Positions 1,187 through 23,516 of a DNA stretch of 35,052 nt are shown here, one piece after another; the stretch's first letter is position 1, and every line of letters starts with the position of its first letter. The position numbers and the translations under genes are program-made. The DNA comes from a virus: IMG/VR virus record IMGVR_UViG_3300032249_001356, positions 1-35,052 of that record; one strand, given 5' to 3'. The notes beneath the pieces were generated by a model that saw only the letters and a program-made list of their open reading frames with translations, was not told where the DNA came from and searched no databases.

Positions 1187-1532
1187 CTTTGACTTTTTTG
1201 AATGAGATAATGTCGGTGGCACCGTAGATCAATGTGTTTGTATTGCATGGATGACTGTTCTGGAATTCGCTGTCATCATAAATGAAGTAACTGCCTTCAC
1301 AGAATCCAACTTTGAGGTCAATACCACCAGCATCCAGGTATAAACGGGTGGTCATTTTAGCTCCAGAAAGATGGATGTAATTCACTTCATACATGGCATA
1401 TTCTTTTTGCTCAGGCTTATCTGCTCCACGTAGCGAGTTAAGACCAACAGCCATTAAAAGAGCAGCAGCGATAATAAATGCAATGCACAAAAGATTTATG
1501 AGGCAACTTTTATAAAAAATTGGTGGCACCAT
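1167..1532 (-). CDS. Small membrane-anchored protein, unknown function
   Basis: 121 residues starting MVPPIFYKSC. One hydrophobic helix (about residues 8-31, LINLLCIAFIIAAALL) is followed by a soluble domain of about 85 residues with two cysteines. A longer frame begins at 1601, but the start at 1532 lies just after the stop of the preceding gene (1537) and puts the membrane segment at the N-terminus, so it is preferred. It lies in the operon with the DUF5675 gene, two tiny membrane proteins and the MazG-like gene. No family is recognised. A role in lysis or in altering the infected cell's envelope is possible but is inference from position. Confidence 0.6.
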   Translation of the reverse strand: MVPPIFYKSCLINLLCIAFIIAAALLMAVGLNSLRGADKPEQKEYAMYEVNYIHLSGAKMTTRLYLDAGGIDLKVGFCEGSYFIYDDSEFQNSHPCNTNTLIYGATDIISFKKVKDEHRSD

Positions 1533-1536
1533 TGCT

Positions 1537-1848
1537 TTAATGTTTAGATTGTTCACAAGTAATCGTTGCAAAAGCAGATTCACAGTGGCCAGGTCTTTCA
1601 ATCCAGATGATCTGCTGATCTTTGTTCATCGTAATCTGAACACCCCCAGCTCCTACCCTTCTTGTAGAAAGGCCTTTGTCTACCATTTCTTTGTAATGCT
1701 CCGTAAGCGCTCGGTGAAAATCGGTAATGTCCTTCATCACTTGAAATTCTTCTGGCACTGGCGCAGCCAAACCGATGGCATGCTGAATAAGAATTGCGCA
1801 TGTCTTGCTAAAAGGCTTCTTCGTTGTTTTAACTTTAAACTGAACCAT
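1537..1848 (-). CDS. Hypothetical protein, 103 residues
   Basis: A soluble, mildly basic protein with no signal or membrane segment. The middle (residues 30-60) is predicted helical and the C-terminal half reads like beta strands (VGAGGVQITMN, QQIIWIERPG). It begins 14 nt after the 27-residue membrane peptide gene and ends just before the next gene, so it is clearly part of the same operon. I do not recognise the family and assign no function. Confidence 0.6.
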   Translation of the reverse strand: MVQFKVKTTKKPFSKTCAILIQHAIGLAAPVPEEFQVMKDITDFHRALTEHYKEMVDKGLSTRRVGAGGVQITMNKDQQIIWIERPGHCESAFATITCEQSKH

Positions 1849-1862
1849 AGTCGCTATTTGAT

Positions 1863-1946
1863 TTACAGGATTAAGACAAAAAAAGAAATAATAATCACAG
1901 CCCAGAACAGCTCGTTCCAGGGATCATGGTCGTCAGACTTTTTCAC
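1863..1946 (-). CDS. Tiny single-span membrane protein, 27 residues (GTG start)
   Basis: Starting at GTG (1944-1946) the frame reads a charged head MKKSDDHDPWNELF and then a hydrophobic tail WAVIIISFFVLIL before a TAA stop. It fills the gap between two genes, with 11 nt before it and 14 nt after. Charged-head, single-span peptides of this kind occur next to lysis genes. It could be a second holin, an antiholin or a small membrane regulator. The short length and GTG start keep confidence moderate. Confidence 0.45.
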   Translation of the reverse strand: MKKSDDHDPWNELFWAVIIISFFVLIL

Positions 1947-1957
1947 GTTTTGATTTT

Positions 1958-2077
1958 TTACTCTCCGAAAATCACATCGATCAGCATGTAGACCAAGTAC
2001 AGTGCACCTACAATTATGCCGGCCACCAGGCCAATCACAATCCCGATCAAGACTCCGAAGAGGAATGAAACAATCAT
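1958..2077 (-). CDS. 39-residue glycine-zipper membrane protein, holin candidate
   Basis: A complete 39-codon frame whose ATG overlaps the stop of the upstream DUF5675 gene as ATGA, the usual sign of translational coupling. The protein is almost all membrane segment. Glycines fall at residues 8, 12, 16, 20 and 24, giving four overlapping GxxxG motifs in one helix, followed by LYLVYMLIDVIFGE. Repeated GxxxG is a known helix-helix packing motif that drives oligomerisation in membranes. With the DUF5675 protein directly upstream, a holin or pinholin role is the best inference. Other possibilities are an unrelated small membrane regulator or a superinfection-exclusion peptide. Confidence 0.65.
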   Translation of the reverse strand: MIVSFLFGVLIGIVIGLVAGIIVGALYLVYMLIDVIFGE

Positions 2078-2607
2078 TTTGGGTAAGCTTTTACCAGGTC
2101 AATCAATGGGATCCGAATGGTTTCCCAGTATACCGGTATCGAGAAGTCCATCTTCTTTTCGATGAAGTATGGATCCAAAATTTTGTGGATCCGTTTCAAC
2201 GCTTCCTTGCTCCGTGCCACGGTAAAATTGCTGTTGGCATCCATCCCCGTGCCTATGCCTGGGAGCTGGCACCCAGCTGTATCCCCAACGTCAACACCAG
2301 GATGTACCCGGATCAAGCTGAAATTTGGTACATCCTCCAGGGTAAGAATGTACTTCAGCTTTAGCGCTGGGTCATTGCGGTACTGTTGGTAAAACTTACT
2401 GTTTCGGGTAGGCTTGAGCCTAAACCGGCCAGCGGGGATCCTGGTTTCTTCCTTAACCTTCACTTCCCTGGGACCATCCTCCAGTATCCAGCATAGTCCT
2501 CTTGGACGAGTGGTCAGCGCATCGTGTTCTTCTACCCACAATCTGCTCAAAGTGGAGTTAGTGGTTGATGCTACCATGATGTTTTGGAAATCAATCGCTG
2601 TAATCAT
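2074..2607 (-). CDS. DUF5675 family protein, candidate cell-wall enzyme
   Basis: 177 residues with the DUF5675 pattern: EDGPREVKVKEETRIPAGRF (about 43-62), then NFSLIRVHPG with His102, then DTAGC with Cys113. DUF5675 is common in Bacteroidota phages and prophages and its activity is not established. The spaced His and Gly-Cys pair resembles the active site of YkuD-type L,D-transpeptidases, so a peptidoglycan-acting role is a reasonable inference. Coupling to the glycine-zipper membrane gene (ATGA overlap) supports a lysis cassette, and no other endolysin is visible in the window. Intact, of normal length. Confidence 0.75.
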   Translation of the reverse strand: MITAIDFQNIMVASTTNSTLSRLWVEEHDALTTRPRGLCWILEDGPREVKVKEETRIPAGRFRLKPTRNSKFYQQYRNDPALKLKYILTLEDVPNFSLIRVHPGVDVGDTAGCQLPGIGTGMDANSNFTVARSKEALKRIHKILDPYFIEKKMDFSIPVYWETIRIPLIDLVKAYPK

Positions 2608-4079: not shown

Positions 4080-4562
4080 TTAAAAATTGCTCAAAACAGA
4101 GGCTGGATCAAACAGTTCCTCTTTTTCCTTCTTCTTGGGAGTAGGGGACTTTGATGTTTCAGCGGGGGCAGTTGTTAGAATTGCCCAGTATTCAGTACCA
4201 TCAATGATCTCAGGTTCTGCAGCAATGCGAAACCTGTAGGATTTTTGATTGGGGAGCGTTCGATGAAAGAGTTCTGTTACTAGCTTGTAATAGGCTGAGC
4301 AGTTAAACCGGCATTGTTTGTAGCGTCCTGTAATTCGTATCTCAAAACCATTTTCATGAAGTGTCAGGTAGAGATCTTTAGGATTATCGGCATCCTGTAC
4401 CAGTATTATCCGGTCATTGTCTTTCAATTGCAGTAGCTCAGTTGCTTTTCGACTCAATGCATTTACAGATTTAGAAAAGCATATTTCAGGGAGTAGTTTT
4501 TTTCCTCGAGTAGAGGAAAGTTGCGATCCAACATACTCCTTGTCCATTACGATCAATTTCAT
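4080..4562 (-). CDS. Hypothetical protein, 160 residues
   Basis: Starts MKLIVMDKEY. A longer frame from 4640 would overlap the upstream gene by 58 nt, so the start at 4562, 20 nt after that gene, is preferred. The protein alternates beta-like and helical stretches and ends in a lysine-rich linker (SPTPKKKEKEELFDP) and short acidic tail that looks like an interaction peptide. No family is recognised. Its place directly downstream of the replication gene group suggests a DNA-metabolism role, by position only. Confidence 0.6.
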   Translation of the reverse strand: MKLIVMDKEYVGSQLSSTRGKKLLPEICFSKSVNALSRKATELLQLKDNDRIILVQDADNPKDLYLTLHENGFEIRITGRYKQCRFNCSAYYKLVTELFHRTLPNQKSYRFRIAAEPEIIDGTEYWAILTTAPAETSKSPTPKKKEKEELFDPASVLSNF

Positions 4563-4582: not shown

Positions 4583-5029
4583 TTAAATAGATACGGTTCT
4601 TGCTTCTTCTGCGGTCAGTGGTACGTAGTGTTTGCTCCAATCATGGGGGTACGTTGAAGCATGCTCCATATCGGTATACAGGATATTGGTCTTATTGAGT
4701 CGGAGAGGGGAGGAATCATTCATGTCGTGTAAGTGAGCCCGGATCAGGTTCTGTGTACTTTCGTTGACGTAGGCCATGGTTTCAGCGCTGAACAATACGT
4801 AGAAATGGCTGCACAATAAGCTCGTTCGTTTCTTGTTGATCTGCTTGACCATTCTGCTGTGTACCTCCAGGAGGCCAAAGTAGGTGTGGTGTTCAAGGTG
4901 ATCCTTTTCGTTCTGGATGCGGTGGTGCAGTGCCTTGATCAATAGCTCGCGCAAGTCTTCAGGCATAATGAAGCTGAGCTTGCCATCCTGTAGTGGTTTC
5001 AACTTAGAACTCGTCGGTGTAGAACTCAT
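4583..5029 (-). CDS. Hypothetical protein, 148 residues
   Basis: A soluble protein with start chosen at MSSTPTSSK (5029). Alternatives upstream at 5065 and 5080 increase the overlap with the preceding gene. It is helical and rich in histidine around residues 30-50 (LIKALHHRIQNEKDHLEHHTYFG), which may bind a metal, though no known motif is matched. It overlaps the previous gene by 26 nt, showing tight packing in the replication operon. Function unknown. Confidence 0.55.
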   Translation of the reverse strand: MSSTPTSSKLKPLQDGKLSFIMPEDLRELLIKALHHRIQNEKDHLEHHTYFGLLEVHSRMVKQINKKRTSLLCSHFYVLFSAETMAYVNESTQNLIRAHLHDMNDSSPLRLNKTNILYTDMEHASTYPHDWSKHYVPLTAEEARTVSI

Positions 5030-7577: not shown

Positions 7578-7656
7578 GCGTTGTTCATCTCCCCTCCCTG
7601 GGGCGTTGCACAGCATACACGATATTCCGGGCAAGCTTCACTTGCCCTTTTTTTTT
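7578..7656 (+). ncRNA. Candidate small RNA of about 75-80 nt
   Basis: A complete unit: perfect promoter ending at 7572, predicted start near 7578, and a strong terminator at 7629-7656. The predicted RNA has a 5' hairpin (CCCC at 7590-7593 pairing with GGGG), a linker of about 25 nt (GTTGCACAGCATACACGATA) and the terminator stem. No start codon with a useful frame is present. It lies opposite to all neighbours in a gene-free gap upstream of the replication operon. It could act as a phage regulatory RNA. The existence of the RNA is predicted from the signals, and its target is unknown. Confidence 0.55.
7629..7656 (+). terminator. Intrinsic terminator of the small RNA
   Basis: GGGCAAG (7629-7635) and CTTGCCC (7641-7647) form a perfect 7-bp stem with a 5-nt loop, followed directly by nine Ts (7648-7656). 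A second hairpin, TTTGCCC pairing with GGGCAAA (7654-7675), reuses the end of the T run and the same GGGCAA word. Confidence 0.85.
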
Positions 7657-8488: not shown

Positions 8489-8557
8489 GGCTCCTTTGCG
8501 TTGTGTCGGTAAGCCAATCTCGATCACCCAGCGAATTGAATACTATGAGAAAACTTG

Positions 8558-8630
8558 TTGCAACGATGGGACTTGAACCCACGACCTCCGGGTTATGAGC
8601 CCGGCGAGCTACCAACTGCTCTACGTTGCT
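8558..8630 (-). tRNA. tRNA-fMet (CAT), initiator type
   Basis: A full cloverleaf with anticodon CAT (8595-8597) and three marks of bacterial initiator tRNA. Bases 1 and 72 are unpaired (A and A). The D stem is GAGC/GCTC, giving the A11:U24 pair, whereas elongator tRNAs have the reverse GCTC/GAGC. The anticodon stem CCGGG/CCCGG supplies the three consecutive G:C pairs next to the loop (CTCATAA). The T arm is GTGGG, TTCAAGT, CCCAT. CCA is not encoded. It starts 13 nt after the HTH gene stop and is probably co-transcribed with it. An elongator or Ile-lysidine tRNA is unlikely given these identity elements. Confidence 0.85.
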
Positions 8631-8643
8631 TTCTATTCTTCTA

Positions 8644-8985
8644 TCATGCGCGCGCTGGGATCACCAGCGTACCCTTCTGAATTTTTCGCAATACTTCCAT
8701 CACTTCCTCTCGAGCGTACGTGTAGGGGCGCATGCACCCAAAGCGACTCAGCAAACCTTTCTCACGCAGCCACTGCAGGCGCAGCCGGTGGGTATTGCTC
8801 CTGGTGATGGGGATGCCCAAAAGGGTGCATACTTCATCGCCACTGAGCCATTGCGACATGGGCTTGGCCTCAGCTGGTCGGCCTACCTCATTGAGTACAG
8901 TGGCCACCAAAACCTTCAGCGACTGAAACTCTGTCCGCATCCGGGTTACTTCCTCCAGTAATGTTGCTTGTTGCTCTTGTGACAT
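8644..8985 (-). CDS. Excisionase-like helix-turn-helix protein
   Basis: 113 residues: an N-terminal helical segment (about 1-40, coiled-coil-like: LLEEVTRMRTEFQSLKVLVA), then a MerR/excisionase-type winged HTH (WLSGDEVCTLLGIP, about 45-59; LRLQWLREKGLLSRF, about 68-82; YTYAREEVMEVLRK). This arrangement is widespread in Bacteroidota mobile elements and prophages as a small DNA-binding or excision-directing factor. It lies between the tRNA elements and tRNA-fMet. Because only a fragment of the integrase remains nearby, this gene may be a leftover of the lysogeny module or may now regulate tRNA expression. The domain is clear and the role is inferred. Confidence 0.75.
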   Translation of the reverse strand: MSQEQQATLLEEVTRMRTEFQSLKVLVATVLNEVGRPAEAKPMSQWLSGDEVCTLLGIPITRSNTHRLRLQWLREKGLLSRFGCMRPYTYAREEVMEVLRKIQKGTLVIPARA

Positions 8986-9077: not shown

Positions 9078-9128
9078 TGAGCAAGAGCGAGGATTCGAAC
9101 CTCATGATGCCTTTACATCTTCTTGCTA
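9078..9128 (-). other. tRNA-like element lacking D and anticodon arms
   Basis: On the minus strand AGCAAGA and TCTTGCT form a perfect 7-bp acceptor-like stem. Inside it lie one hairpin (GATG, loop TAAAGG, CATC) and a canonical T arm (GAGG, TTCGAAT, CCTC). ACCA follows the 3' side. Total length is only about 50 nt. The single hairpin resembles the variable arm of a class II tRNA (Leu/Ser/Tyr), so the element could be a deletion derivative of one. It could also be a free-standing mimic of the acceptor-T half. Confidence 0.45.
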
Positions 9129-9295: not shown

Positions 9296-9338
9296 GCGTC
9301 CCCTAGCAGTGCTTTAAACCATCCAATGGTTTTTTATG

Positions 9339-9411
9339 AGCAGAACCCAGGACTCGAACCCGGACAACGCGGCAGTTTTGACGCTGGATTAGCCATTTCT
9401 CCCAGTTCTGC
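9339..9411 (-). tRNA. tRNA-like gene with a defective anticodon arm (identity uncertain)
   Basis: Acceptor GCAGAAC/GTTCTGC is perfect, the D arm has GGA/TCC with the invariant GG in its loop, and the T arm is CCGGG, TTCGAGT, CCTGG. Length is a normal 73. The anticodon arm does not fold properly. The best stem (CAGCG with TGCCG) has one mismatch and one wobble and puts C at position 33 and AAA at the anticodon. An alternative 8-nt loop reads CAA after a U. The gene may be degenerate, may code for an unusual tRNA, or the contig may have an error here. Confidence 0.5.
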
Positions 9412-9527: not shown

Positions 9528-9600
9528 AGCCGAATCTGGGACTCAAACCCAGCACCTCCCGCTTACAAAGCGGGCTACCACACCAGGTGGATTCTTCGGC
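9528..9600 (-). tRNA. tRNA-Thr (TGT)
   Basis: A good cloverleaf: acceptor GCCGAA with TTCGGC (position 7 mismatched G/A), D stem CCAC/GTGG, anticodon stem CCCGC/GCGGG with loop TTTGTAA giving anticodon TGT (9565-9567), and T arm CTGGG, TTTGAGT, CCCAG. It reads ACA and probably ACG threonine codons. CCA is not encoded. A terminator hairpin ends only 2 nt upstream of its 5' end. Confidence 0.85.
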
Positions 9601-9774: not shown

Positions 9775-10086
9775 TCAAACCCCAGAGGGTAGTAAGGACA
9801 AATCCTCTGCTTTTTGTTGTACACTGGTAAGTGATTTTACCCAGCGAGGGTTGCCTAATCCAAAGGACTGTGCTAGGTCTTCGGGCCTTTGCCCGACCAC
9901 GCTCGCCAGCAGAATCACTTCAATCGGATTCATCTTTACCAGTCGATCTTCCTCTACCTTCTCATTGATGAGCCAATTCCAGCGGTTGGACGTGATGTCC
10001 AACTTGTTAGGCATAGCTTCAAAATCTATGTCTGCCTCCGCCAAAAAAAGTTTTAGGCGAATCACTTTTGTATTTAGCTTTAGCAT
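9775..10086 (-). CDS. Cro-like / XRE-type regulatory protein
   Basis: 103 residues starting MLKLNTKVIRLKLF. The start at 10086 is supported by an upstream AGGAG at 5-nt spacing; a frame start 14 codons earlier lacks this. The helical pattern (VIRLKLFLAEADIDFEAMP, LDITSNRWNWLINEK, MNPIEVILLASVVG) fits an XRE/Cro-type HTH in which the recognition helix carries N-R-W-N-W. It is divergent from the repressor remnant across a 177-bp control region, the standard place of Cro, and is followed by its own terminator. The recognition sequence is not known. A different early regulator is the alternative. Confidence 0.6.
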   Translation of the reverse strand: MLKLNTKVIRLKLFLAEADIDFEAMPNKLDITSNRWNWLINEKVEEDRLVKMNPIEVILLASVVGQRPEDLAQSFGLGNPRWVKSLTSVQQKAEDLSLLPSGV

Positions 10087-10263
10087 TGCTCTCCTTTTTT
10101 TTTGGCAAAAATTTGCAACCCTAAACACATTTGTTATATTTGTGCTAGTTATTGCAAGTGTGGTTATTTATCAATCATGCAGTAAAAATATAAAGAGATC
10201 AGTATTTTGTCAAGCTTTACTTGATTTTTTTTACTGATGTGTTTATAATTTTATTTTAATTAC
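10087..10263. promoter_or_regulatory. Divergent repressor/Cro control region
   Basis: The AT-rich space between the divergent regulator genes holds the plus-strand promoter (10112-10142) and a dyad around 10104-10115 (GCAAA, 2 nt, TTTGC) that overlaps the promoter's upstream element, suitable for an operator. The word TTGCAA recurs nearby (about 10113 and 10152). No clear TAnnTTTG box was found for the minus strand. Confidence 0.5.
10112..10142 (+). promoter_or_regulatory. Bacteroidota-type promoter of the repressor remnant
   Basis: TTTG (10112-10115), a 19-bp spacer and TATATTTG (10135-10142) are an exact match to the Bacteroidota consensus. Predicted start near 10149, leaving a leader of about 115 nt before the GTG start at 10264. 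The promoter is intact although the gene it serves is truncated. Confidence 0.7.
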
Positions 10264-10575
10264 GTGTATGTGTCTGTAATTGATAGGATTACGGTTTTAG
10301 TAGAATTAGCAGGGAGCAAGACCAAATTTGCTCGAGTTGTTGATTTGAGTGTACAAACTGTAACCAACATGGTGAACAATAGTACCTCAGTTCGAAGTGA
10401 CACCCTTGAAGCAATATTGAAAGGCTATCCAAATCTCAGCGCCCGCTGGCTACTCACTGGCGAAGGCGAGATGTGGACTGAAGAGCATATACAATTTCCA
10501 ATTTCTACTGCTCGGCAGGCGCAAGCAAATTTGCTGGTGCCTGTACGAGGGAAGGGCCAAAGTGTTCTTTCGTAG
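10264..10575 (+). pseudogene. Truncated CI-like repressor (HTH part only)
   Basis: A 103-residue frame beginning at GTG with an XRE-type HTH (about residues 18-42: SKTKFARVVDLSVQTVTNMV) and the segment LSARWLLTGEGEMW that is typical of Bacteroidota phage repressors. Full-length relatives continue through NLLVPVR into a LexA/S24 peptidase domain. Here the match stops at ANLLVPVRGKG and the frame ends 8 codons later. The following DNA, in another frame, is the end of a tyrosine recombinase. Without the C-terminal domain it would lack dimerisation and RecA-triggered cleavage. It might still bind the operator weakly or act as a short dominant form. Promoter is intact. Confidence 0.75.
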
Positions 10576-10748
10576 CCACACACACGGCCAGGCGCAGCGC
10601 GGCCACGAATATGTACCTCCAGAACGTTTCATTGAAACTGATTGCTGACCTGGGCGGATGGTCCAGAATAGAAACCCTGAAGCTCTACCTGCGAGCCTCA
10701 GGGTTGGAGACGGCCATCATGGCCACTGACCTGGAGTTTTTTAAATAA
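10560..10748 (+). pseudogene. C-terminal fragment of a tyrosine recombinase (integrase)
   Basis: In the frame ending at TAA (10746-10748) the sequence reads CSFVATHTARRSAATNMYLQ, then NVSLKLIADLGGW and RIETLKLYLRASG. These are the last catalytic elements of a phage integrase: the HxxR box (HTARR, from 10581), the His/Trp position (W of LGGW) and the nucleophile Tyr (TAC at 10686-10688). The N-terminal DNA-binding domains and the first catalytic Arg are missing. The frame is shifted relative to the repressor remnant, so no fusion protein is made through the join. Its end overlaps the convergent connector gene by 8 nt. The remnant places the integrase originally downstream of the repressor on the same strand. 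Confidence 0.8.
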
Positions 10749-11790
10749 AGATGCCACCAATATGATCCTCCGATTCATAGATCGTATTCAAGTCCTGATC
10801 CTTCACGTATGCACCACTGGCCACAAAAAGCGGGTAATCGCCGTGATTTTTTTGCAAAAATGACAATAAATCAGCGCGCGCGGTACGGGCATTGTCCTCG
10901 CATGATGAGCGCAGCGCGGCGATGGCCTGCAACTGAAAGGGGTTTGTGATGCTTTTGCGGTCATCCATTCCATCTGTACTGGAGAGAACGCGGATCCCGT
11001 CGCCTTCAACCAGGATTGAGATATGAGGAATGGCTTCGAAAAGTCCCCACTCTGAAACAAATCGCTTAATCAGTGCAATGAGCTTGAGGTTATTGGCGCT
11101 CAGGTTGTTGGCAGCCAGCTGCGTTTTGATCTCGTTGTAAAGGTCTGCACCCAGCAAAGGGCACAAGTATTTTTCCTCAGATTTGAGGAGGTATTTACCC
11201 AGGGCCATGTAGGCGCGGCGACTGCTCTGGATGTTGATGTAATTGTCCAGGTCTTCGGTGCCTTCAAAGAAGGTGGATCCTTTCGCCTTATAGGCTTTGC
11301 TGGCCTTCCATGCATTGTAAAAGGTATTGCTCGCTTTGATCTGAGCTTCCATGTGGGCCAATGCAAGGTCCAGGAAGGTATCAGCTGATCGAAGAGCGTC
11401 CCAGCGCGCATTCTTGAAGGACCACTGGTTGGCCGGCGCAGCCGTACCCTCCGTCGCGTTGAGTTGTTGGATGCCCATGTCGGCCACACTTAAATTCAAG
11501 TGTGGAAATCCATCAAAAATAGCGTAATAAGCAATCGAATCCTGGAGGTGATTGATAAGATCTTTCTGTTCATCCGTTCCGGTACCGGATTCGTGAAGGT
11601 TGGCCAAGGCACCATACAAGTCAGCTGTCAGAAAAGGGATCACGTACTTAGTGGTTGCTTGCCGAATGAACGGCGACAAGGTATCCCAGCGCATATTGAA
11701 ATTAACTCCGGGATAGTGCTCCCGAAAATTGTAGTGGCCAACTACATCTCCACTCAGGCCTTCGCTCGTTTTTTTAAAAAGAAGTTTCAT
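10741..11790 (-). CDS. DUF6712-like head completion / connector protein
   Basis: 349 residues starting MKLLFKKTSEG; the ATG lies 6 nt after the terminase stop, preferred over one 8 codons upstream. The protein appears to contain two similar halves, each beginning with a phrase like RWDTLSPFIRQATTKYVIPFL or SRRAYMALGKYLLKSEEKYLCPLLGADLYNEI and ending in a helical bundle. This is the pattern of Bacteroidota phage DUF6712-type proteins that lie near terminase or capsid genes and are thought to act at the head-tail connector. Family assignment is from recollection of this pattern and should be treated as likely, not certain. It is the last late gene before the regulatory region and converges on the integrase remnant. 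Confidence 0.6.
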   Translation of the reverse strand: MKLLFKKTSEGLSGDVVGHYNFREHYPGVNFNMRWDTLSPFIRQATTKYVIPFLTADLYGALANLHESGTGTDEQKDLINHLQDSIAYYAIFDGFPHLNLSVADMGIQQLNATEGTAAPANQWSFKNARWDALRSADTFLDLALAHMEAQIKASNTFYNAWKASKAYKAKGSTFFEGTEDLDNYINIQSSRRAYMALGKYLLKSEEKYLCPLLGADLYNEIKTQLAANNLSANNLKLIALIKRFVSEWGLFEAIPHISILVEGDGIRVLSSTDGMDDRKSITNPFQLQAIAALRSSCEDNARTARADLLSFLQKNHGDYPLFVASGAYVKDQDLNTIYESEDHIGGIFI

Positions 11791-11797
11791 TGCTTCG

Positions 11798-13258
11798 TTA
11801 TTGAAACCCAGCAAAGCCAGGTGATGAGTTAGTCATGAATTGTTTCCAGCCATGCTTCTGGATCAGGTAGTAATCGATGGTATCTGTGTAATGCGGCGCA
11901 TGCTCCTGGGGAAAGTTTCGGTTCTTTTCGTTCGTTTTTACCTTCTCAAATTTATCGTTGATCTGAGTGACCTGGATGGCGATCACCATGTCCTTGCAAT
12001 CATCCTCACTGAAGCGGACTTTAGGATACAGTAGGTTTGTTTCCTCCAGAACTTCGTTGACGAATTGATGGCGCTCCAGGTGGTTATTGGTTCGACCTGG
12101 TTGCACTGCGATCTCGCAGCCCCATCCACCATCTGCCAATATTCGAGCGATGGTTTCGTAGATGGTTTCGCCCATGGGGTTTTTATCGTGGCCACGTGGT
12201 TCCCCCCAAATACGTGCAAACTTAAACTCATGGTCTTCAAAATGCTTCATCACCTTACGTACTAGCTCAGGCACCTTCTCATCACCTTTAACGTGAAACT
12301 GTTTGATGCAGCGCTCTACATTTTCTTTCTCCTGGTAACAGCTGCAGCAGTTGAACCAACCGCTGAAGTCAAAGCTCAGCTCAATGAGTTCATTTTTCTT
12401 GATGTCTTTTCGGCCAGTGACGGTTAGTCCTCTTTCTGCTTCACCATACTCGTAAGTGGGCTTGTAGATGTGCTTTTTGTCATCGAACTTGTGGTAAAAA
12501 CCATCGGGCAATTTGGTGATGCGCATGTTCATTACTTCCACTTGAAACTCGAGGTAACTCATTTCCTTTTCAAGGAGAGCAATGCCTTCCTCCCCAAGAA
12601 CTTCAATGTTATCATATGCAGTGGCCTCGACAACTTTGTACAGGTTAGGCTCTAACTTCTGTTTTTCCTCAAAACTCAAAACCCAATAACCACTCGGCTT
12701 CCATGGGATCGATGTGTAAAAATTCACGTTGTGGTGTAGGTGATGCCGAAACACGTGCCGGTTGCCGCGTACGCTAGGTAGTAAGATTTTTGTCCAGTCG
12801 GTTTCGTCTAGGAGCGCGGCCTCATCTACTTCACCTCCATCATAGGATCCACCCCTCGCGAGGTCAGGACGATCCATACTGAGCAGCTCGATGCAAAATC
12901 CATTCAAAAACGAGATTACATTTTGATATTTTCGAGGTGGCGCGATTGGCTTTTCGAACCAGCGTGGAGGCCTGCGCCCAACAACATAATGCTTCTCATC
13001 GATGAGGCCCATGCTATTCCACATTTGCTCGATCGCAGGAAGCGTTTTGGTAAGTATCTGATTGTAAGTTGTACTTGCAAAAAAAATCTTGCCCCTGGGC
13101 AAAGCGCCCATTTTCTGGCGGGAGCTGACTCCAGCTGCAGTGCTTTTTCCAAAGCCTCGACCCGCAAGCAAAATTTTTATTTTCTGCGGCGAGGCCAAGA
13201 ACTCGATCTGTTTTTCGTTGAGGTATAGTTCCTTTTTAGGTCTCGTCGTCGTCATCAT
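11798..13258 (-). CDS. terL: Terminase large subunit
   Basis: 486 residues. The ATPase has Walker A AGRGFGKST (32-40) and Walker B with catalytic Glu in GGEVDEAALL (141-150). The C-terminal nuclease shows the first metal-binding Asp in ELSFDFSGW (Asp297) and the closing HYTDTIDYYL near the C-terminus. It cuts concatemeric DNA and drives it into the procapsid through the portal. The small subunit gene overlaps it upstream by 23 nt. Length and motif order are normal. The nuclease domain contains a cysteine cluster (WFNCCSCYQ) that is unusual. No frameshift seen. Confidence 0.93.
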   Translation of the reverse strand: MMTTTRPKKELYLNEKQIEFLASPQKIKILLAGRGFGKSTAAGVSSRQKMGALPRGKIFFASTTYNQILTKTLPAIEQMWNSMGLIDEKHYVVGRRPPRWFEKPIAPPRKYQNVISFLNGFCIELLSMDRPDLARGGSYDGGEVDEAALLDETDWTKILLPSVRGNRHVFRHHLHHNVNFYTSIPWKPSGYWVLSFEEKQKLEPNLYKVVEATAYDNIEVLGEEGIALLEKEMSYLEFQVEVMNMRITKLPDGFYHKFDDKKHIYKPTYEYGEAERGLTVTGRKDIKKNELIELSFDFSGWFNCCSCYQEKENVERCIKQFHVKGDEKVPELVRKVMKHFEDHEFKFARIWGEPRGHDKNPMGETIYETIARILADGGWGCEIAVQPGRTNNHLERHQFVNEVLEETNLLYPKVRFSEDDCKDMVIAIQVTQINDKFEKVKTNEKNRNFPQEHAPHYTDTIDYYLIQKHGWKQFMTNSSPGFAGFQ

Positions 13259-20726: not shown

Positions 20727-23516
20727 TTAGTAGATTTTGATCCAGCCGATACCGGCATAAAATTTGAACTTGCGCTGGGAACCAGGAACGGCAGTGGTGA
20801 CTGCGGATCCTACAATTGTATTGCCATTCCCATCAAGCGTTAAAGAGGTTATTGCATTGTTATAGGTTATGCTGAGTACCTGGCCATCACTCGGCGTTGC
20901 AGGAAAAAGCAGGGTAAAACTTGCTTGGGTGCTGCCTTGATTGATTAAATTATCAGATTGCGTGTTGCTGAGTGTTACTGGAGAGGTGGTTGAAGTTACT
21001 GTATTGTATTGCTCATGTAGGATTTGAGTGGGGACTGTGGATTCACTGGCAAAGAGAAGTCGTTCCCAACCAGTTGATTTTTTAATGTATAAGCCCTCCG
21101 TTGCATCTATTTGATAGCCAAACAATGCCGTTGCTGCGGAAGATATAGCCATGCGTTGAACATTTGTCCATCTCGGTGGTAAGATACCTTTTGTCGTAGA
21201 GTTTGCAGTCAGGATAGAGCTTGGTATATCAGTTATTGTACCAACTAGGATATTTCCTGTGTTTGGTGCAATTTTCATAGATATAGTTGGGCCAGTATAA
21301 AAGTCGTGGGCAGCTGTACTTGTAACGATGTAATTTAAGGTCGAAGCAGTTACCCCAAATCCATACTGACTGCCGTATAAATTAACTTGTGGTGTCGTAG
21401 GCGATGGAGCAATGTCCGAAAAATTCAATGTTTTTAAAGATTGCATATTAATTCCCGCTGACCCAACTGTAAATACTTTTGTAGCCCCAGTGTAGAATGA
21501 ATGCACGCTTCCATCGGTCATATAATCTAAGCTTCCTGCTGACACACCAAATCCATAGTTCGGGTATAATGTTATTTTAGGATTTGCTCCAGCTGTCGAG
21601 CTATATGTTGAACCCATATTGATTTGGCTGGGGGTTGAAGTTGAGGTAGAGGTAGTTGTTCCTATTTGCAGGATCGGCCTACTATCATTTGAAAGGCGAA
21701 AAAGAATATTTTGCGTAATCTGCCCATTTATATCAAAGTAAGGTATATATGTGTTTATCCCAGTTGCAATTGTACTTTCTGGATAATAAAACTTTCTTGT
21801 TCCATTATATCCACGTAGACCAATACCGTTTTCGTACTGAAATAATGCTTGTACTCCGGTTATTGCATCGGCTTGTACTCCGGTCATAATTGGAAATGGC
21901 CTACTACCTTTGGTCGTAGAAAGCACGTCAAAAATAGACGATGTTGCGGGGGCTGATCCTCCAATAGAAACCTGGCCATCAGATGAAATCCGCATTCTTT
22001 CAACTCCTGTACTATTTGAGATGTCAGCCGAGGCATCAGTCCTGAAAACTAGCCCTAAACCTTGTGAAAAAAGAGTTTTATCATATATCGAATAAATCCC
22101 GGCAGGATTGGATGTATACGATCCACCTAGTCCAAACACATAAGATGCCCCAAGAGCACCATTTGATCCGGTCGTAGTAGCAGTTACAGCTGCCTGATCC
22201 TTAATTGTTAATTGCCATTGTGCCCGACTAGCTGCATTCCCTATCATCACTCTACCGGAATTAGGTTGTAGTATTATGACATTGTCATTCCCACCTCCCC
22301 AATATCCATGTTGGATGTAACCATATCCTTGGTTAAATCCACCTCTTCCTGTATTGTTTAATCCAAAAGTCATATATCGACTATTTCCATCAGTTATACT
22401 TTCTCTAATACGTAAGCCAAAACTTTCATTCGCTATTCCTGTGCCACCAGCAGGAACCAGTAAATCAATTGGTGGATTTTTTCCAGAAGGAACACCAAGT
22501 GTAAATTTTCCAGAGAGATATGTAAAGTTTACGTTTCCAGATAATGGACTTCCATAAGCAATCTGATTTGCCCCAACCCCAGATAAAAGAGAACTTGCGT
22601 AATACTTCGTCGCAAGTTTTAACGTGTCAACTCGAATTGTTTTTGAAGTCTTAATGATTCCAAATCCCCCAGTGGATGGGTAATATGCAAGCATTGTGGC
22701 GGTATCACCCCGCTCGATATACCTGGTCAACATGGCCGACGTATCACTCCGCTCGATATACCTGGTCAACATGGCCGACGTATCACCTCGCTCGATGTAC
22801 CTGGTCAACATGGCCGACGTATCACCCCGCTCGATATACCTGGTCAACATGGCCGACGTATCACCTCGCTCGATGTACCTGGTCAACATGGCCGATGTAT
22901 CTCCCCGCTCTATGAACTTGCTCAACATGGCCGACGTATCTCCCCGTTCAATGTACTCAGAGACATCTATTGTATCACCATTCGTTTTTGCACTTGTACC
23001 TGCCCTTTCTTTGAGGTATAATATGTCCAGCTCATTGGTAGGATCCCGATCAAGGTCGAGGGTATCAAGGCTATCGATGTAGTTGCGGGCTGTGAGTATG
23101 CTATCGGCCAATTCGGAACGCACCTGGTTCGCGTACAGCTCAGCTACCCCAGCTGCATAAATGTTTGAGAGTTCTACTGCGTAGCTAATTATTTCTTTCC
23201 ATGCCGTACCATTCCACCAATAGATCAGGCCATTCTGAATGTTTATCGCCGTCCTGGTCTCATAAGTAGTGGGTGCTGTAGTAGGTGGGCCGTATTTCAG
23301 TGTAATGCCCATAAGTGGTTTCCACTTAGAGCTATCTCGATGCCACTGGTAAATCATTTTTCGATTAATGGATACACAAAGTTCCGATCCCTTCTGAGAG
23401 ATATTGGGGGTATGCGTAGGGAAATCATTTACATATCCAATTCCAGTGCCGTAGAGCTGGGCAAAGGTCAAGGCTGGTAATGCCAACAATAAAAGAATAA
23501 AGATCAATTGCTTCAT
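20727..23516 (-). CDS. Tail fibre / receptor-binding protein with signal peptide and repeats
   Basis: 929 residues. Residues 1-20 are a signal-peptide-like sequence (MKQLIFILLLLALPALTFAQ). Residues 30-140 form an N-terminal domain ending in a helix with DSLDTLDLDRDPTNELDIL. Residues about 185-273 hold seven copies of a 13-residue unit (YIERGDTSAMLTR). The rest is a long beta-rich shaft and head in which a module recurs (KGSRPFPIMTGVQADAITG; KGILPPRWTNVQRMAISSA), as in Bacteroidota phage fibres. It probably forms a trimer that recognises the host surface. No chaperone domain is seen. It overlaps the upstream gene by 4 nt. Confidence 0.75.
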   Translation of the reverse strand: MKQLIFILLLLALPALTFAQLYGTGIGYVNDFPTHTPNISQKGSELCVSINRKMIYQWHRDSSKWKPLMGITLKYGPPTTAPTTYETRTAINIQNGLIYWWNGTAWKEIISYAVELSNIYAAGVAELYANQVRSELADSILTARNYIDSLDTLDLDRDPTNELDILYLKERAGTSAKTNGDTIDVSEYIERGDTSAMLSKFIERGDTSAMLTRYIERGDTSAMLTRYIERGDTSAMLTRYIERGDTSAMLTRYIERSDTSAMLTRYIERGDTATMLAYYPSTGGFGIIKTSKTIRVDTLKLATKYYASSLLSGVGANQIAYGSPLSGNVNFTYLSGKFTLGVPSGKNPPIDLLVPAGGTGIANESFGLRIRESITDGNSRYMTFGLNNTGRGGFNQGYGYIQHGYWGGGNDNVIILQPNSGRVMIGNAASRAQWQLTIKDQAAVTATTTGSNGALGASYVFGLGGSYTSNPAGIYSIYDKTLFSQGLGLVFRTDASADISNSTGVERMRISSDGQVSIGGSAPATSSIFDVLSTTKGSRPFPIMTGVQADAITGVQALFQYENGIGLRGYNGTRKFYYPESTIATGINTYIPYFDINGQITQNILFRLSNDSRPILQIGTTTSTSTSTPSQINMGSTYSSTAGANPKITLYPNYGFGVSAGSLDYMTDGSVHSFYTGATKVFTVGSAGINMQSLKTLNFSDIAPSPTTPQVNLYGSQYGFGVTASTLNYIVTSTAAHDFYTGPTISMKIAPNTGNILVGTITDIPSSILTANSTTKGILPPRWTNVQRMAISSAATALFGYQIDATEGLYIKKSTGWERLLFASESTVPTQILHEQYNTVTSTTSPVTLSNTQSDNLINQGSTQASFTLLFPATPSDGQVLSITYNNAITSLTLDGNGNTIVGSAVTTAVPGSQRKFKFYAGIGWIKIY
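22697..22965. repeat. 39-bp tandem repeats in the fibre gene, arranged in 78-bp pairs
   Basis: Seven units of 39 bp share the core CTGGTCAACATGGCCGAC. Two variants alternate: units with CGCTCGATATACC and units with CGCTCGATGTACC. The alternation A, A, B, A, B shows that a two-unit 78-bp block was duplicated. The outer units are more diverged. All keep the frame (13 codons). Confidence 0.9.

Follow-up and report, generated by a model that had tools for sequence, protein, structure and literature searches.

An initiator tRNA gene with an A1·A72 acceptor end in a phage of a Bacteroidota-type bacterium

A gene at 8558-8630 on the minus strand of the window carries every sequence determinant of a bacterial initiator tRNA and, judged by these, is a phage-carried initiator. 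The window is the whole stretch of DNA analysed here, a single linear IMG/VR virus record of 35,052 bases, and it represents a virus of a Bacteroidota-type bacterium. We consider it likely that the tRNA is processed, charged and formylated by the host and raises or safeguards the pool of initiator tRNA.

8558-8630 (-), initiator tRNA gene, tRNA-fMet(CAU), supported by ARAGORN, Rfam, covariance models, fold and leave-one-out profile

ARAGORN called a tRNA-Met (cat) at 8557-8630 (-), and the Rfam tRNA model RF00005 matched 8558-8630 (-) with 65.8 bits (E 2.4e-12). The RNA reads AGCAACG UA GAGC AGUUGGUA GCUC G CCGGG CUCAUAA CCCGG AGGUC GUGGG UUCAAGU CCCAU CGUUGCA A and is followed by CAAG, so that CCA is not encoded. 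Folding yielded an exact cloverleaf with positions 1 and 72 unpaired (-27.3 kcal/mol, z -2.4). A chance tRNA-like fold was ruled out by the Rfam score and by folding against shuffled sequences.

A73 counts among the features of bacterial initiator tRNAs and is present here, together with the CAU anticodon and the formylation helpers G2:C71 and C3:G70. The original prediction had recognized the CAT tRNA as an initiator by an unpaired 1:72 position, A11:U24 and three G:C pairs below the anticodon loop, and all of these marks are found in the sequence. Position 1·72 is A·A, which forms no strong pair according to both the sequence and the predicted fold, the D stem contains A11:U24, and the pairs G29:C41, G30:C40 and G31:C39 follow one another beneath the anticodon loop CUCAUAA. 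At the fourth pair of the acceptor stem, A4:U69 takes the place of G4:C69. The 1·72 mismatch, the three G:C pairs, A11:U24, G2:C71 and C3:G70 are the determinants described for bacterial initiators (PMC7949028, PMC9976931).

For the assignment to a class, CAU tRNAs from Bacteroidota chromosomes served as controls, the phylum having been chosen by means of a Bacteroidota MAG (G001). Three covariance models were built from 14 initiators, 16 elongator Met tRNAs and 12 Ile2-type tRNAs; the division of the non-initiators, for which the acceptor type and the base preceding U33 were the main criteria, is a working assignment. Beforehand, a higher elongator Met or Ile2 score had been named as the result that would speak against the prediction; the window tRNA scored 90.1 bits with the initiator model, against 70.1 with the elongator Met model and 64.1 with the Ile2 model. 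A leave-one-out profile, which classified all 42 chromosomal control tRNAs correctly, gave 74.6, 42.7 and 13.6, respectively, with A11, G12, C23, U24 and G31 as the deciding positions. An identity as elongator Met or Ile2 tRNA, or as a tRNA-like RNA of another role, is therefore extremely unlikely. A CAU anticodon does not distinguish the three classes, and an acceptor end with A1·A72 is unusual, but the competing scores lie 20 and 26 bits below that of the initiator, and among the control tRNAs only the initiators have A11:U24, G12:C23 and G31:C39. Elongator Met and Ile2 identities were ruled out by the model scores and the leave-one-out controls.

Compared with the chromosomal tRNA-fMet genes fetched from Bacteroidota, which normally do not encode CCA either, the window tRNA is up to 93% identical over positions 7-62. 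Its CUCAUAA loop is the same as in all 14 Bacteroidota initiators of the model alignment, and the 29-31:39-41 stem is identical to that of host initiators. In contrast, the outer anticodon stem differs from theirs, and the acceptor stem is wholly unlike theirs: position 1·72 is A·A where the chromosomal genes have C·U or C·C. These two are the usual combinations in Bacteroidota chromosomes, where U·U also occurs. A pattern search revealed A1·A72 in four of 167 distinct initiator-type tRNAs, which came mostly from viral contigs; 36 of the 167 have a standard 1:72 pair, which is G:C in only one. Thus, the acceptor end is indeed diverged, as had been proposed, but the C1/A72 taken as the norm in that proposal does not apply to Bacteroidota.

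According to a PHROG search, the genes of the window include terminase, head protease, capsid-like and tape-measure genes, and the cultured relatives of the terminase belong mostly to Flavobacterium, Cellulophaga and Polaribacter phages. Related phages were found via the capsid and via an alignment scan with the large terminase subunit, TerL (28 loci). A scan of viral contigs with the single TerL protein and a search of viral contigs for the exact 42-nt core of the tRNA gave no matches; alignment scans with the DUF6712 and cro-like proteins returned only contigs already known and did not widen the cro/tRNA cassette. The following features of the window were used for comparison with these relatives.

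9775-10128 (-), small ORF upstream of the tRNAs, in the position of the relatives' cro-like gene
10264-10575 (+), CI/XRE-type repressor-like gene, HTH_3 E 3e-4 (below the curated cut-off), similar to the repressor of relative G006
10572-10697 (+), C-terminal remnant of a tyrosine integrase, PF00589, 28.7 bits, profile positions 127-168
10741-11814 (-), DUF6712 gene (PF20459), syntenic marker shared with the tRNA-carrying relatives
11798-13258 (-), terminase large subunit (PHROG 2), used to find relatives

Two distant relatives, whose TerL proteins are 44-48% identical to that of the window, also carry initiator tRNAs. In G006 (IMG/VR 3300002220_000544) the gene lies at 4157-4229 of locus L175 and 1·72 is C·C; in L405 (3300034107_001095) it lies at 4828-4900 and 1·72 is A·C. 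Both are on the same strand as the DUF6712 gene and 2-3 kb beyond it, the same place as in the window. The order DUF6712 gene, integrase, CI/XRE-type repressor, divergent small gene, tRNA and early genes is common to all three. The repressor, the cro-like protein and the small downstream proteins of G006 have homologues in L405, whereas the window shares the layout with both and its repressor is weakly similar; the ORF at 9775-10128 has no sequence similarity to the relatives' cro-like gene. Since the tRNA occupies the same place in these related phages, it is phage-encoded and not host flank, and the synteny rules out host flank or a chimera as its source. The integrase is intact in both relatives and reduced to the C-terminal remnant, which abuts the repressor ORF, in the window. 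A deletion seems to have cost the window phage its integrase.

Compared with the window tRNA, those of the relatives have five or six base pairs replaced in a compensated manner; no pair is broken, and 1·72 is unpaired. Between the window and G006, six pairs differ on both sides, one differs on one side and none is broken, and positions 1 and 72 have both changed yet are unpaired. These compensating changes in three diverged copies indicate that the gene is under structural constraint, and, together with the synteny, they back the phage-encoded identity assumed in the original prediction. Among 84 distinct initiator-type tRNAs from viral contigs, a set that may contain host flank and whose alignment was fitted to the model, 99.1% of the pair cells form a pair, and both sides have changed in 15 of the 20 pairs. 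On the other hand, about six relatives that cover the region (L384, L386, L389, L394, L395 and L403) have no tRNA there, and hence the gene is accessory. The integrase of L389, which lacks the tRNA, is 97% identical to that of L405, which has it, and the three carriers are not grouped together in the TerL tree.

The initiator gene lies among further small elements on the same strand.

8644-8985 (-), small ORF of 113 aa without PHROG or Pfam match, ending 13 nt before the tRNA
9079-9127 (-), miniature tRNA-like element without a D arm, read from the sequence, fold z -2.8 against shuffles
9338-9411 (-), degenerate tRNA-like gene, called tRNA-Phe(AAA) by ARAGORN, below the Rfam tRNA cut-off
9528-9600 (-), weak tRNA-Thr(UGU)-like gene of the same array, ARAGORN, 30.1 bits

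The element at 9338-9411 has C instead of U33 and a near-perfect acceptor; its best Rfam match is a sub-threshold tRNA-Sec (18.7 bits), and it is probably a decayed or non-decoding tRNA. The miniature element combines a 7-bp AGCAAGA/UCUUGCU acceptor with a small hairpin and a T arm (GAGGUUCGAAUCCUC). Thus, none of the other tRNA-like elements in the array is well formed; they are weak or degenerate and score about 30 bits or less. The initiator, by contrast, is intact, and the decay around it suggests that it has been selectively retained. The ORF at 8644-8985 is possibly co-transcribed with the tRNA. Further upstream there are two terminator-like hairpins, at 9713-9690 and 9632-9608. No promoter stood out, and a scan with the Bacteroidota promoter consensus performed no better than chance. 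Elsewhere in the window, a strong terminator-like hairpin (GGGCAAG-CTTCA-CTTGCCC followed by a T run) occupies a gap between early genes at 7629-7647 (+), and a run of near-identical ERGDTSAMLTRYI repeats is located at about 22700-23080 (-) within the large ORF 20727-23516, which is probably tail-fibre-like.

Initiator tRNAs have been described in other phages, and the rarity among phages implied in the original prediction was overstated. A BLAST search with the window tRNA matched 659 phage records (E up to 1, a figure that includes partial matches and is not a count of initiators), and all five phage matches sampled scored best as initiators. Cyanophages (PMC4810235) and prophage NV1.1.1 (PMC10460002) are known to carry initiator tRNAs, and Sinorhizobium phiLM21-like prophages, which are temperate and about 50 kb in size, have a single tRNA-Met or tRNA-fMet (PMC12429752). 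The phiLM21 copy (KJ743987) scored 72.0 as initiator and 61.9 as elongator but is atypical, with an extra 2:71 mismatch in the alignment; the host and phage family of these prophages differ from those of the window. A tRNA-fMet is annotated in a Bradleyvirinae phage, and the tRNAs of the Bradleyvirinae phages vB_Sm_QDWS359 (a Stenotrophomonas phage, NC_073028) and Donnerlittchen (NC_073031) and of Pseudomonas phage PaMx74 (NC_028809) likewise fit the initiator model best. These three phages of Proteobacteria, unrelated to the window phage, have genomes of about 60 kb, in which the tRNA-fMet, accompanied by at most one further tRNA, adjoins the terminase gene. Unlike the window tRNA, those of vB_Sm_QDWS359 and Donnerlittchen encode CCA and have C1·A72 or U1:A72. 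Mycobacterium phage Myrna, Prevotella Lak phages and Bacteroides LoVEphage also encode an initiator; in these and in the cyanophages it is part of a large tRNA set, whereas in the window it is the only well-formed tRNA. The tRNA-CAT of Cellulophaga phage phi4:1 (L317 3001-3074), with A1·C72 and a D-loop insertion, scored nearly equally as initiator (78.1) and elongator (80.1) and may be a hybrid or transitional tRNA. Phage tRNA-fMet is thus already documented, and in the literature searched we found no earlier report of an initiator tRNA in this group of Bacteroidota phages. What is modestly new is the occurrence in this group, the A1·A72 combination and the probable targeting of the host tRNA-fMet gene by the integrase of a relative.

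The last point rests on two relatives. The contig of G002 ends at a host-like tRNA-fMet directly beside the integrase, and this tRNA is identical to the gene of the Bacteroidota MAG G001 at 71 of 73 positions. In G006, a putative attP core, TCCTGCCTCCGCCAC, is located at about 2483-2497 of L175, just upstream of the integrase gene (1191-2369, minus strand); these 15 nt match the host initiator gene of G001 exactly at its 3′ end. When the region upstream of the G006 integrase was compared by BLAST with 791 tRNA 3′ ends, the initiator gene was the sole match (E 0.006), while the corresponding regions of L405 and L389 gave no matches. The G006 and G002 integrases are 59% identical, and the attB of this integrase family is probably the host tRNA-fMet gene. 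The G002 contig (C129), which holds a relative of the Bacteroidota-type phage of the window and ends with the Bacteroidota-type tRNA-fMet at L165 19884-19956, was binned as an Alphaproteobacteria MAG; it was probably mis-binned.

Integration at the host gene offers another explanation for the phage tRNA: an ancestor inserted in the host tRNA-fMet could have taken it along by imprecise excision, leaving a captured attachment-site relic without a role. The probable target of the relatives' integrases, the integrase remnant in the window and the existence of close relatives without the tRNA gene would all agree with such an origin. However, in G006 the complete tRNA and the putative attP lie in different places, and the tRNA sequence is not that of the host gene; the tRNA is thus not just the attP. 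The preservation of all pairs and of the unpaired 1·72 in three diverged copies is unexpected of a functionless relic, as is an intact initiator amid decayed neighbours. We regard a relic without a role as very unlikely, although the tRNA may have been captured from an attachment site in the past. A role in counter-defence, in which the phage copy would replenish the pool or withstand the attack where hosts cleave or modify initiator tRNA, appears rather unlikely. Initiator tRNA is cleaved by VapC toxins, and evasion of tRNases has been put forward as a role of phage tRNAs (PMC10264068). The gene is optional, a frequent trait of counter-defence genes, and its acceptor stem and outer anticodon stem depart from those of host initiators. 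On the other hand, an anticodon-loop nuclease should cut the phage copy too, given the identity of the loop and the 29-31:39-41 stem with the host, and the window tRNA shows no change in the anticodon loop relative to host initiators of the nuclease-evading pattern (PMC10264068). Moreover, phages are reported generally to avoid tRNA-fMet where this is the cleaved tRNA (PMC10264068), and PADLOC recognized no defence genes in ten early ORFs scanned.

The reading we prefer is that of a functional initiator that adds to the pool. Because the gene follows the same-strand ORF 8644-8985 after 13 nt, in the stretch beyond the regulator genes, it is probably transcribed lytically, and transcription may occur early in the lytic programme. 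Host RNase P and the CCA-adding enzyme would process the transcript, host MetRS would charge it and the host formyltransferase would formylate it. The resulting fMet-tRNA could then be used by IF2 and the ribosomal P site, enlarging the initiator pool when new mRNAs are heavily translated or when the host initiator is limited or damaged.

The case bears on the question of why phages carry tRNAs at all. An initiator is not accounted for by codon supplementation, since every gene uses it exactly once, and small phages with tRNA-fMet as the only good tRNA therefore provide a clean test of an effect on initiation. As phage initiator tRNAs in general are already on record, the gain is incremental. 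As a broader proposal, temperate phages of Bacteroidota that integrate at the host initiator-tRNA gene might carry a spare, expressed initiator in the early operon, thereby insuring initiation against loss of the host initiator pool, whether the phage itself causes this loss by entering or leaving a host gene of low copy number or an initiator-targeting defence does so; we judge this quite unlikely. That a phage initiator tRNA coincides with a relative's integrase whose probable target is the host tRNA-fMet gene points to a specific reason, accessible to testing, why these phages may carry the gene.
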